Shown piece by piece: positions 4,288 through 30,045 of a stretch of DNA of 64,000 nt. The position numbers were made by a program, and so were the translations under genes. The notes beneath the pieces were generated by a model. The model searched no databases. It was given only the letters and a program-made list of their open reading frames with translations, and was not told the origin of the DNA. The stretch lies in contig NZ_KE386573.1 of NCBI RefSeq assembly GCF_000427685.1, positions 2,774,938 through 2,838,937 of the forward strand, given 5' to 3'. Positions within the stretch are counted from its first letter, which is position 1; every line of letters begins with the position of its first letter. The stretch is from Haloplanus natans DSM 17983 (lineage in GTDB: Archaea > Halobacteriota > Halobacteria > Halobacteriales > Haloferacaceae).

Positions 4288-5025
4288 ATGCTCACGACGG
4301 ATCTCTCCGACCGGGTGGCCCTGGTGACGGGGAGCGCGAAGGGTGTCGGCCGCGAGTTCGCCCTCTCGATGGCCGAGGCGGGCGCGTCGGTCGCGGTGCA
4401 TTACCACACGAGCGCCGAGGCGGCGCGCGCGACGGCCGCCGTCGCCCGCGAGGCAAGCGGCGAGGCGACGACGGTGCAAGGCGACGTGACCGATCCCGAC
4501 GACGTGGACGCGATGTTCGACGCGGTCGAAGCGGCTCTCGGGTCGGTCGACATCCTCGTCAACAACGTCGGCGACTTCGCCCCCCGTCACTGGGAAAAAC
4601 TCACGTTCGAGACGTGGAATCGCGTCCTCGGGACGAACCTCAACGGGACCTACCTCTGCTCGAAACGCGCCCTGCCCGCGATGCGCGAGGCCGCGTTCGG
4701 CCGCATCGTCAACGTCGGCTACGCGGGAACCGAGAAGGCGCTGGTCTACCCGAAGAACTTCCCGTATCTCGTCGCGAAAACGGGCGTCATCATGTTCACG
4801 CGGATGCTCGCGAACGACACCACATCCGACGGCATCACCGTCAACTGCATCTCGCCGTACGTCGTCGAGAACTCGGACGAGTTCCCCGACGAGGCGCCAC
4901 GTGGGCGGTGGGCCTCCTTCGACGACCTGCGGCAGGTGCTCTTTTTTTTCCTCGATTCGGACAGCGACTACGTGAGCGGCGAGAACGTGGAAGTCGACGG
5001 CGGGTGGATTCCGGAGGCGCTGTAG
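4288..5025 (+). CDS. SDR-family oxidoreductase (FabG-like)
   Basis: 245 residues from the ATG at 4288. Classical short-chain dehydrogenase: the cofactor loop TGSAKGVG near residue 14, the NNVGD motif (the NNAG equivalent), and the catalytic YLVAK (YxxxK). The usual catalytic Ser strand reads IVNVGYAG, so the serine position is atypical. The C-terminus VSGENVEVDGGW is standard. An NAD(P)-dependent ketone/alcohol reaction is implied; the substrate is unknown. A run of eight T at about 4940-4947 encodes a Phe run. Divergent from the UspA gene with a short promoter region between them. Confidence 0.85.
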   Translation: MLTTDLSDRVALVTGSAKGVGREFALSMAEAGASVAVHYHTSAEAARATAAVAREASGEATTVQGDVTDPDDVDAMFDAVEAALGSVDILVNNVGDFAPRHWEKLTFETWNRVLGTNLNGTYLCSKRALPAMREAAFGRIVNVGYAGTEKALVYPKNFPYLVAKTGVIMFTRMLANDTTSDGITVNCISPYVVENSDEFPDEAPRGRWASFDDLRQVLFFFLDSDSDYVSGENVEVDGGWIPEAL

Positions 5026-5036
5026 GGCGGGTGCGG

Positions 5037-5429
5037 CTACGCCTCGGGCACGTCGTCGGGGTCGTCCTCGACGGAGCGTTTCATCGAGTCGCGGCGCGAC
5101 TTGGCATCGCGGCCCGTCACTTCGAGCAGGAAGTCGTTTTTCGCGCTGACGGCGTCCTCGGCGGCGTCGGCGTGGCCCTCCTCGATGACCTGGGCCGCCG
5201 GCTTCTCCTCGAAGTGGACGCCGAGTTTGTCCTTTTTCCCGCTGTACTCGACGGCGCCGGCGACGATGCGCTCGAAGACCGGGTTGTCGGGGTCGCCGAC
5301 GACGTAGAGGTCGCTTCCCTTGTACTCCTCCGTGCCCGTGACGGGGCCGAAGTACCCCTCGACGGTCCCTTTCAGATCAGGCGCGTTCTCCGCTAACGTC
5401 TCCCCACGACGCATCTTGTACTCCTTCAT
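5037..5429 (-). CDS. Conserved haloarchaeal protein, DUF5611-like
   Basis: 130 residues from the ATG at 5429 (MKEYKMRRGETL). The longer frame to 5555 reads through a palindromic element and is rejected. The protein contains VEGYFGPVTGTEEY, LYVVGDPDNPVF and a lysine-rich YSGKKDKLGVHF segment, then a charged C-terminal tail. It resembles a small haloarchaea-specific family that I recall as DUF5611. No catalytic motif or membrane segment is visible, and the function is unknown. It lies convergent to the SDR gene, 11 bases away. Confidence 0.75.
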   Translation of the reverse strand: MKEYKMRRGETLAENAPDLKGTVEGYFGPVTGTEEYKGSDLYVVGDPDNPVFERIVAGAVEYSGKKDKLGVHFEEKPAAQVIEEGHADAAEDAVSAKNDFLLEVTGRDAKSRRDSMKRSVEDDPDDVPEA

Positions 5430-26730: not shown

Positions 26731-26895
26731 GCGATCGACCGTCCGCCGCCGGGCCCTGGATTAGCTGATTGAGGCGCTAAGCCCCCTTCCTCAGCGAGCG
26801 ACCAACGGGAGCGAGCAGGGAGGGGATACAGCGCCGCACAGTTCTCAAACACCTTCGACGCTCGGCTCACAGGCCAACGCTTCACCAATACCATT

Positions 26896-27048: not shown

Positions 27049-28347
27049 ATGTACTACGCCTACAAGTACCGTCTCAAGCCGTCCGACGCCCACCGCGAGG
27101 AGTTGGACCGCCACCGAGACATTTGTAGGCAACTGTACAACCACACGCTCTACCGCCTCAACGAGTACCAAGACGAACACGGCGAACTGCCGTCCATGAC
27201 CATCCTGCGGTCGGAACTCCCCGACCTCAAGAAGTGGTGGGACGGCCTCTCGGACGTGTACTCGAAGGTTCTCCAAACCGTTGTAGAAAGATTGTTCGAC
27301 AATCTCAAAGGCCTCTCCGCACTCAAGGAGAACGGCTACGGCGTCGGGCAACTCAAGTGGAAGCCGCCACGGGAGTTCCGCAGTTTCACGTACAGTCAAT
27401 CTGGCTTCAAGCTCGACAAGAAGGGCGGTCAGACTGTCCTGTCCCTCTCGAAACTCGCGGACATACCAATTCGGCTCCACCGTGCCATCCCCGACGATGC
27501 CACACTCAAGCAGGTCACGGTCAAGAAGGAACCGACGGGCGAGTGGTTCGCCACGTTCGGCGTCCAAATGGACCGCGAACCGCCTAAACCGCCTGAGAAA
27601 CCCGAGCAGTGCGTCGGTATCGACGTGGGCATACTCAAGTACGCCCACGACACGGACGGCACGGCGGTCGGGTCGCTCGACCTCTCAGACGAACGTGACC
27701 GCTTGGAACGCGAGCAACGGAAGCTCTCGCGCAAACAGCACGGGTCGAACAACTACGAGAAGCAACGACGGCGCGTTGCGGAGTGTCACGCCGACCTCCG
27801 ACGGAAGCGCCACGACTTCCTCCACAAACTCTCGAACTACTACGCTCGGGAGTACGACTTTGTGGCGGTCGAAGACTTGAACGTGAAGGGGATGATGGAG
27901 TCGCCGTCGAACAGCCGCAACACCGCGTCCGCCGCGTGGCGAACGTTCATCTCGTTGCTCAAATACAAGTGCAAACGAGAAGGGACACATTTCGTCGCGG
28001 TCAACCCTAGAGGGACGACCAAGGAGTGCGCGTCGTGCGGCGTTTCGACCGACAAGCCGTTGTGGGTGCGCGAACACTCCTGTCCTGCCTGCGGTTTCGA
28101 GGCGGACAGGGATGCGAACGCGGCGTGGAACATTCTTTCTCGCGGCCTCGAAGATGTAGGAGTGGGATACTCCGAATCAACGTCCCCAGAAATCTTCAAT
28201 TTCTGGTGTGCGGACGAATCGTGTAGCGATTCGTCAACGCCTGTGGAGACTGCGCTCCCTGTGGACATCCCGGTGTCTGCAAAGCGCGTCGTGCAAGCAG
28301 GAAGCCCTACCCTCAAGGAGCGAACGGCGCAAGCCGTGAGCGAGTAG
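27049..28347 (+). CDS. tnpB: TnpB RNA-guided endonuclease, intact
   Basis: 432 residues. RuvC-like triad: Asp192 (GIDVG), Glu275 (VAVEDL) and Asp355 (DRDANAAWNI). The zinc finger has Cys327/330 (CASC) and Cys345/348 (CPAC). The N-terminal helix-turn region begins YYAYKYRLKPS, as usual. All catalytic residues are present, so it should be an active RNA-guided DNA nuclease of the Cas12-ancestor family. The last 100 codons overlap the predicted right-end guide RNA. It belongs to a lineage different from the tnpB genes at 54936 and 58022. Confidence 0.93.
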   Translation: MYYAYKYRLKPSDAHREELDRHRDICRQLYNHTLYRLNEYQDEHGELPSMTILRSELPDLKKWWDGLSDVYSKVLQTVVERLFDNLKGLSALKENGYGVGQLKWKPPREFRSFTYSQSGFKLDKKGGQTVLSLSKLADIPIRLHRAIPDDATLKQVTVKKEPTGEWFATFGVQMDREPPKPPEKPEQCVGIDVGILKYAHDTDGTAVGSLDLSDERDRLEREQRKLSRKQHGSNNYEKQRRRVAECHADLRRKRHDFLHKLSNYYAREYDFVAVEDLNVKGMMESPSNSRNTASAAWRTFISLLKYKCKREGTHFVAVNPRGTTKECASCGVSTDKPLWVREHSCPACGFEADRDANAAWNILSRGLEDVGVGYSESTSPEIFNFWCADESCSDSSTPVETALPVDIPVSAKRVVQAGSPTLKERTAQAVSE

Positions 28348-28357
28348 GGTAGGGTAG
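28225..28357 (+). ncRNA. Predicted right-end guide RNA (reRNA/sotRNA) of tnpB element
   Basis: The tnpB 3' end forms a nested hairpin: outer stem ccctaccct (28305-28313) with agggtaggg (28346-28354), inner stem acggc-GCAA-gccgt (28324-28337) capped by a GNRA loop. The tnpB stop lies in the outer stem. IS1341-type genes of Halobacterium salinarum produce such sense-overlapping RNAs, and TnpB uses its right-end RNA as guide. The 5' boundary is a guess; the guide would begin just after 28357. Confidence 0.55.
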
Positions 28358-28369
28358 TTCACAGGTACA

Positions 28370-28672
28370 ACCCAAGACCCCGTAACAGGGGCAGAAGGTG
28401 AACGCCTCGAAGGAGGACCGCAGTGACCCGACGCCCGTCCGACATGGCGGACGGGAGAGAAGACCAAGTAACGGGTCTCGTGTAAACGAGGCTCACGAAC
28501 CCGGGAACCAGTGCCGGTCGTGAGGGTCGTGAAACGCATCTCCCGCCCGAATCCAAATCGTGGGGACCGACCGATGACCTCGCCCGAGAGCGACGGCATC
28601 GGATTCACGTTGCCGACACCCCGGACGAAAGGGGCCTCGAGAGACGATGGTACAGGGAGTGTCCGAGGCCCA
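28370..28672 (+). ncRNA. Candidate structured RNA of unknown class
   Basis: About 300 bases with at least eight short-loop hairpins and no open frame that looks coding. Stems: 28378-28391 (cccc/gggg), 28405-28416 (cctc-GAAG-gagg), 28434-28455 (cccgtccg/cggacggg, 8 bp), 28475-28492 (gtctcgt-GTAA-acgaggc), 28494-28522 (cacg/cgtg with inner cgg/ccg), 28571-28602 (ccgatg/catcgg), 28619-28634 (cccc/gggg) and 28633-28670 (ggcctcg/cgaggcc); the last two overlap by 2 bases. GNRA-type loops appear in the + orientation. It lacks RNase P and SRP RNA consensus strings. It could be the insertion target of the tnpB element or part of it. Confidence 0.4.
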
Positions 28673-28965
28673 TCAGGACGGTAGAACTGTAGGTTTGAAT
28701 ATGTCAGGGTCGATCACAATATTTTCACCATCGTAGTGCATAAAATGCAATCTGGCCGATAGTATTAAATTGTTGACCTTCCACATTAGTGTGGGCACCG
28801 CGACATCGGCCCCAACAGAGGCACCCTGTTTCATCTCCCGGTGGCCCGCCGACCTTCCGTTTTCGATCGGACGACGTTCACACGCGAGAAGGGTCGACAG
28901 CCTCGGTCAGGACGTACGCATCGGGGGAGCCGACACGGCGAAATCCTGCGAGCGACCGGTGGGTA
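28673..28965. other. AT-richer stretch with no recognisable gene
   Basis: No supported coding region. Around 28684-28790 the DNA is clearly more AT-rich than its surroundings (for example cacaatattttcacc) and includes small inverted repeats such as gcataaaatgc and ccacattagtgtgg. It is probably the edge of old mobile DNA upstream of the decayed hicB. Confidence 0.5.
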
Positions 28966-29170
28966 CGAACGGGGGGAGTACCACTGCCACGGACCTCGAA
29001 ACTGGACTGGCCCGCGGTGGGGACAGCCGTGCCGAGGCGCTCGCACAACTCGCCGAAGTTCTCGCGCTTCACGAAGGCGACAGTGAGCGGAGCGACGACC
29101 CGGACGCCTTCCTGCAGGACGAACTCGGCATCGAACCGAGCGACGAGGACTGGGACCTCTCGGAGTTATA
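28966..29170 (+). pseudogene. Truncated hicB copy
   Basis: Encodes TATDLETGLARGG, RAEALAQLAEVLALHEGD and DELGIEPSDED, nearly identical to residues about 23-80 of the intact HicB at 29278, but without a matching N-terminus or start codon. It runs into unrelated sequence after a perfect hairpin (ctcggagt-tat-actccgag). It arose by tandem duplication of the hicB region, and only the downstream copy keeps its hicA partner. Confidence 0.7.
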
Positions 29171-29277
29171 CTCCGAGGCGCCTCAGAATTTTGATTGGCT
29201 CGCCGGGTGGGTACGTCTGCCGGGCGAAGAGGGCTCGGCCGAAGGCTTATCATCAACGTCGGCCCTACTTCGCAGTA

Positions 29278-29544: not shown

Positions 29545-29547
29545 TTG

Positions 29548-29793
29548 ATGGTTCGGACGACGTTCTCCGGCCGTGAGATCATTGCCGTCCTGCGGAGTTT
29601 CGGGTACGTCCCCGTCTCTCGGAGCGGGAGCCACGTTCGACTGCGGTACGAAAATACGGACACGGGCGAAGTTCGGAACGTCGACGCGCCGATGCACGAC
29701 GAGGTGAAAATCGGGACGCTTCGCTCGATTGCCGGCCAGTGCGGTGCAGAGGATTTTCAAGAGTGGTGTCGCTGGATCGATGACCACGCCTGA
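29548..29793 (+). CDS. hicA: HicA-family mRNA interferase toxin
   Basis: 81 residues from the ATG at 29548 (an in-frame TTG lies just before). The double-stranded-RNA-binding-like HicA fold is seen in TFSGREIIAVLRSFGYVPVSRSGSHVRLRY, with the catalytic His in GSHV. The second half, NVDAPMHDEVKIGTLRSIAGQCG, is the standard VPxHxExxxGTLxxI region. It is a translation-independent mRNA-cleaving toxin, balanced by the upstream HicB. The pair looks intact. Confidence 0.85.
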   Translation: MVRTTFSGREIIAVLRSFGYVPVSRSGSHVRLRYENTDTGEVRNVDAPMHDEVKIGTLRSIAGQCGAEDFQEWCRWIDDHA

Positions 29794-29985: not shown

Positions 29986-30045
29986 GTGCCGTGAGCGAAG
30001 CGAACGGCACGTCGGCGAGGGAACGAGACGAACGAAGTGAGCGCA

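Follow-up and report, generated by a model that had tools for sequence, protein, structure and literature searches.

The window, a 64,000-nucleotide stretch of the genome of Haloplanus natans DSM 17983 (contig NZ_KE386573.1, positions 2,774,938 to 2,838,937), contains a tnpB element that is directly followed by the 3' part of a structured RNA of ~260–280 nt (Table 1). This copy is a truncated member of a proposed HARP-linked RNA family. Of the closing helix P1 it retains only the 3' strand; helices P3–P9 are present, and the P2 hairpin is missing. The P4–P9 core structure of the proposed family is present. A covariance model of the core (R1) matched positions 28359–28543 with 180 bits, and an improved model (R2) gave 158 bits, scores to be read with the window copy being one of the 11 sequences from which R1 was built. 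The 3' strand of P1, CGCCCGAATCCAAATCGTGG, comes directly after the model match. The initial bases of the P3 hairpin may be the tnpB element's own. A second copy in the same genome (L069, G000:C7:1545685-1545871, minus strand) has an intact P1, including both of its 3-nt bulges; the one in the window probably represents a broken paralog. A blastn search of the genome revealed no match to the missing 5' part elsewhere.

Table 1. Features at the boundary between the tnpB element and the RNA remnant, numbered from the first nucleotide of the window.
Feature	Position	Strand	Basis and details
tnpB ORF, 432 aa	27049..28347	+	ORF list; name from the sequence-only reading; element interrupts the RNA gene
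tnpB element right end, common to other tnpB copies	28340..28364	+	Repeated 25-nt matches in many genomes
Truncated RNA copy: P3–P9 and 3' strand of P1	28362..28565	+	Covariance model match; ortholog L071
P3 hairpin	28362..28408	+	P3a 28362-28366/28404-28408; P3b 28370-28372/28397-28399; P3c 28378-28381/28388-28391
P4–P9 domain	28412..28543	+	P4 28412-28414/28541-28543; P5 28423-28429/28524-28530; P7 28462-28465/28516-28519
P6 hairpin	28434..28455	+	8 bp; compensatory changes in 8/8 pairs among homologues
P8 hairpin, GUAA-type loop	28472..28495	+	10 bp; compensatory changes in 7/10 pairs
P1 closing helix, 3' strand (partner strand absent)	28544..28565	+	P1 test on 53 homologues

Downstream of the RNA lies a separate conserved module at 28631–28725, in which a hairpin formed by GGGGCCTC and GAGGCCC surrounds GATGGTACAGGGAGTG and is followed by TTGAATA and, further on, CACAATATTTTC. 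The module is common to loci L002, L027, and L009, and since the genome carrying L009 (G008) has neither the RNA nor HARP, it is not part of the RNA. Inspection by eye identified a HicB-like ORF from 29279, a HicA-like ORF at 29545–29793, and a decayed-looking HicB-like duplicate at ~28960–29190; by the same means, the module in L009 was also found near a HicB-like ORF. A scan of the whole window against Rfam at curated thresholds returned two tRNAs only.

The break in the RNA gene was located by blastn comparison with a sample of 60 related genomes, among which several congeners matched at 75–78% identity. Similarity to the RNA homologues starts at 28363/28364, exactly where a segment found at the end of tnpB-type elements in many genomes stops. 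An intact ortholog (L071) occupies the same chromosomal position in a congener (G009) that has no tnpB there. Window positions 28364–28726 match L071 positions 4971–5319, the flank at 30045–32588 matches at 91%, and nothing resembling the tnpB part or the window sequence preceding it was found at the G009 locus. The left flank of the element (26757–26763) ends in GGATTAG; in RNA homologues, TTAG immediately precedes (A/G)GGGTA(C/A)AACC, and this junction may be the exact point of insertion. Upstream of the element, however, no 5' part of the RNA is recognisable, which suggests rearrangement. The remnant in the window was produced by insertion of tnpB or by a rearrangement at tnpB.

These observations bear on a sequence-only reading of the window, which had noted that a hairpin array begins right at the tnpB boundary and had offered two explanations for it, an RNA gene hit by the element or an unusually long RNA encoded by the element. 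The boundary was correctly placed, and the intact ortholog in the congener bears out the first explanation. The second, under which the stretch would be an extended omega RNA (reRNA) or another RNA encoded by the tnpB element, can appeal to the direct abutment of the remnant on the right end of the element, yet it is exceedingly improbable and was rejected: homologues occur in more than 100 genomes in varied contexts without tnpB and have their own promoter, and other tnpB copies share bases only up to 28364.

The stems in the window are not proof of structure by themselves, since the fold of the single sequence only mildly outperforms shuffled versions (z = −1.62 for 28358–28690, with 7 of 100 shuffles equally good), and single-sequence folding was set aside as not significant. 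The structure is carried instead by comparative data. In an alignment of ten full copies that was not fitted to a model, 31 of the 65 consensus pairs exhibited compensatory changes. An alignment of 47 copies of the core, which was fitted to the covariance model, contained 46 pairs that were formed in 93.7% of cells, with double changes in 39 of them. There were 376 double-change cells as against 104 in shuffled alignments, none of 500 shuffles reached any of the observed measures, and sliding the partner by one column reduced pairing to <50%. The closing helix lies outside the covariance model and was tested separately at 53 loci in a register of 21 bp (7 bp, a 3-nt 5' bulge, 4 bp, a 3-nt 3' bulge, and 10 bp). 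Its pairs were 92.7% canonical, a percentage somewhat flattered by choosing, at each locus, the register that paired best and by the omission of 11 atypical loci, and it contained 175 double changes, compared with a mean of 46 and a maximum of 73 in 500 shuffles.

In the resulting architecture, P1 closes around P2, P3, and the P4–P9 domain. P1 itself consists of P1c (7 bp), a 3-nt 5' bulge, P1b (4 bp), a 3-nt 3' bulge, and P1a (10–14 bp), with pairing in P1a declining past 13–14 bp. The fold includes many near-invariant unpaired positions. In homologues the sequence continues for ~100 nt beyond the 5' limit of the window copy, up to a TATA-type promoter that usually lies ~36 nt ahead of base pair 10 of P1. 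A protein-coding gene was rejected, since stop codons interrupt all six frames of several homologues and many copies differ by length changes. No Rfam 15 family matched the window RNA or 11 homologous loci at the gathering score, and relaxed scans, including one of 28150–28900, gave chance-level matches only; with no covariance model match, RNase P RNA, SRP RNA, tmRNA, introns, and other known Rfam RNAs were rejected. That the stretch belongs to a real, new RNA family is a conclusion held with near certainty.

Most of what the sequence-only reading had claimed about structure held up. Its dense short-loop stems correspond to the nine helices that the model places at 28362–28543, although their proof is comparative and not a matter of a single fold. 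Its lack of a coding frame agrees with the six-frame stops, and its candidate new structured RNA is sustained by the checks it had named, with double changes in the core and in P1 well above shuffled levels and no family found in Rfam. Its extent of 28358–28690 needs correction; the part up to ~28565 is RNA, and the conserved module that begins at 28631 is separate.

The distribution of the RNA was determined in a sampled set of 391 Halobacteria genomes, with Infernal E-values that are rough. The core model R1 found it in 107 genomes and R2 added one (108 of 391). All 15 Haloferax species examined have the RNA. A phylum-wide sample yielded three positive genomes outside Halobacteria (G415, G424, and G433, at 44–69 bits), whose copies keep the P1 bulge layout and the core motifs, two of them at ~48% GC. 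Some copies are unusual in arrangement. Two megaplasmids of Natrinema sp. SYSU A 869 carry one copy each (L031 and L032) in unannotated DNA, and tblastn did not find HARP on either plasmid. Tandem arrays of the P4–P9 domain, spanning model positions ~58–182, occur at L112, L113, and L212 (genus g49, Salinigranum salinum), and two near-complete copies lie in tandem in G033 (L084). A phage or viral origin was rejected: there was no phage match, and pattern hits in two viral and several bacterial contigs were not supported by the covariance model. No earlier description of the RNA was found in the open-access literature.

The RNA shares its patchy set of genomes with HARP, a small protein-only RNase P (PIN_5, TIGR03875) that exceeded the cut-off in 161 of the 391 genomes. 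In papers on RNase P, the name HARP refers to TIGR03875, the 'RNA ligase partner' protein (PMC12153264). With R1, HARP was present in 101 of 107 RNA genomes (odds ratio 63, Fisher p 9e-43, a test that ignores phylogeny), and with R2 in 102 of 108. HARP is missing from six RNA genomes, of which G096 and G223 are nearly complete; their copies (L119 and L120) are accompanied by neither HARP nor ligase, and G341, of the same genus as G096, has HARP, Rnl3 ligase, and the RNA in one cluster. The window genome encodes HARP (G000:C7:742589-743209, E 1.4e-72), and the 12 genomes of its genus agree throughout: five have both (G000, G002, G005, G007, and G009) and seven neither, where RNA absence in G001, G004, and G011 and presence in G002 rest on blastn and G001 holds a short HARP fragment only. 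The chance of such perfect agreement is about 1 in 792. Outside Halobacteria, HARP was found in all three RNA-positive genomes, with 18 of 60 genomes over the cut-off in that check.

All 121 genomes with Rnl3 ligase (TIGR01209) also have HARP; the ligase is present in 63 of the 108 RNA genomes and absent from the window genome. The three-way table comprises HARP, ligase, and RNA together in 63 genomes, HARP and ligase in 58, HARP and RNA in 39, HARP alone in 1, RNA alone in 6, and none in 224. Of the 161 HARP genomes, 160 therefore also have the RNA, the ligase, or both, the exception being G378 (85% complete, with a weak hit), and the RNA is present in 39 of the 40 that have no ligase. Among HARP genomes, ligase and RNA are negatively associated (p 2.5e-8). 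The RNA is not tied to the ligase, and a role as obligate Rnl3 substrate was rejected given the 45 RNA genomes without ligase. HARP must also have other tasks, since 58 HARP and ligase genomes lack a detectable copy of the RNA. Forty RNA-negative HARP genomes, searched with greater sensitivity, gave no convincing copy and two borderline ones, a decayed-looking 3' remnant in G393 (L169), whose genome has HARP and ligase, and a match without P1 in G168.

HARP is also the most telling recurrent neighbour of the RNA. Automatic clustering of neighbourhoods was noisy in GC-rich DNA, and targeted tblastn over the RNA loci was used in its place. HARP lies 64–217 nt from the RNA core at 26 loci in 23 distinct genomes, always on the opposite strand, in two arrangements: divergent and upstream at 163–217 nt (Haladaptatus, Halorussus, Haloprofundus, Halogeometricum, Halegenticoccus, and others), or convergent and downstream at 64–83 nt (Halorarius, g44, and g92). 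The divergent pair is also found on two Halorussus plasmids, where the RNA is unannotated; one is an already counted contig of G294 and the other, from H. caseinilyticus, brings the genomes with adjacency to 24. Most RNA genes are not adjacent to HARP, and R2 found no RNA in stretches of up to 20 kb around HARP in 16 HARP genomes outside Halobacteria.

Judged from these sequence comparisons, the RNA is very probably linked to HARP in function, because co-occurrence, agreement within a genus, adjacency in two arrangements, the plasmid pair, and recurrence outside the class all point the same way. The full statement, that the window holds the remnant of a free-standing noncoding RNA of the HARP pathway that serves as a HARP substrate, is an even proposition. 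Processing by HARP is the preferred specific mechanism, held tentatively and at somewhat less than even strength. The RNA would be a dedicated substrate, trimmed by HARP in the manner of a pre-tRNA through removal of a short 5' leader from the P1 base; where Rnl3 is present, this ligase could circularize the RNA by sealing the ends that P1 holds close. Processing is preferred since in pre-tRNA HARP cuts off the 5' leader where a stacked helix ends (PMC9051087), P1 unites the ends of the RNA, and the promoter position implies a short leader. Against this reading, P1 does not correspond to a tRNA acceptor/T arm, nor was a tRNA-like elbow identified in the RNA.

In the main rival, the RNA holds HARP in check, either as an RNA antitoxin or as a decoy substrate, HARP being a potentially harmful PIN nuclease made safe by the RNA or by a repairing Rnl3 ligase. 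The near-universal company of the RNA or the ligase and the negative association between those two would fit this idea, as would the tandem P4–P9 arrays of Salinigranum and the placement of HARP in a VapC-like PIN group (PMC10941002). It is nonetheless unlikely: most RNA genes are unlinked to HARP and the linked ones lie on the other strand, which is not how type III toxin-antitoxin operons are built, deletions of HARP or the ligase were reported without growth defects (PMC12153264), and a degradative role for HARP was judged unlikely by reviewers (PMC10941002). The opposite-strand position also led to rejection of a type III operon as such.

Close co-occurrence, together with a large conserved fold rich in near-invariant unpaired positions, could instead mean that the RNA is a stable scaffold or guide in a HARP ribonucleoprotein, so that archaeal HARP would not be RNA-free in vivo. 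The prospects of this reading are poor, given that HARP cleaves pre-tRNA without RNA in vitro (PMC12153264, PMC9051087), that the 58 HARP genomes mentioned above manage without a detectable copy, and that no conserved guide-like segment was identified in the RNA. RNA and HARP might also answer the same ecological pressure, being gained and lost together without working together; HARP is enriched in saline and hot habitats (PMC12153264), and the sampled genomes have common ancestry. Such a coincidence is improbable, given that immediate adjacency recurs in both arrangements across several families and also on a plasmid, that agreement within one genus is perfect, and that the association holds outside Halobacteria as well.

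Processing by HARP, as the preferred reading, bears on a protein whose function in archaea has been called unclear (PMC10941002, PMC12153264). It is conceivable, with nearly even prospects, that archaeal HARP is not primarily a tRNA-processing enzyme and that its main partner is an ancient, undescribed noncoding RNA whose ends it matures or which controls it; if true, this would explain the patchy distribution of HARP and the lack of phenotype in HARP deletions. The RNA constitutes a concrete candidate partner, testable in the genetically tractable genus Haloferax, and a sizeable structured family that Rfam lacks and that extends beyond a single archaeal class.

Among known systems, the closest is the HARP-Rnl3 system (Seshadri and Gopalan, mBio 2025, PMC12153264), which has the same patchy genome set as the RNA, HARP as a common member, and partial gene proximity. 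That study reported a protein partner for HARP and proposed C/D box RNAs as substrates; the present RNA is not mentioned there and occurs also without the ligase, including in Haloferax species with no ligase detected. Archaeal RNase P RNA (RF00373) and SRP RNA are likewise structured archaeal noncoding RNAs of ~300 nt with a long closing helix, whereas the present RNA has no covariance match to them, is patchy in distribution, and contains other helices and motifs. TnpB omega RNA likewise lies 3' of a tnpB gene, as the remnant does in this window, but the present RNA is elsewhere unlinked to tnpB, is preceded by its own promoter, and has a different fold. Type III toxin-antitoxin RNAs of the ToxI type are structured RNAs next to a nuclease gene, sometimes in tandem repeats. 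The present RNA resembles them in these respects and differs in its opposite-strand orientation, its usually single copy, its much larger fold, and the PIN nuclease beside it. OLE, GOLLD, ROOL, and HEARO are large conserved bacterial noncoding RNAs with a role that is or once was unknown and a genetic link to a protein. The present RNA is likewise sizeable, conserved, and genetically linked to a protein; it bears no similarity to these RNAs, is archaeal, and has HARP as its probable partner.
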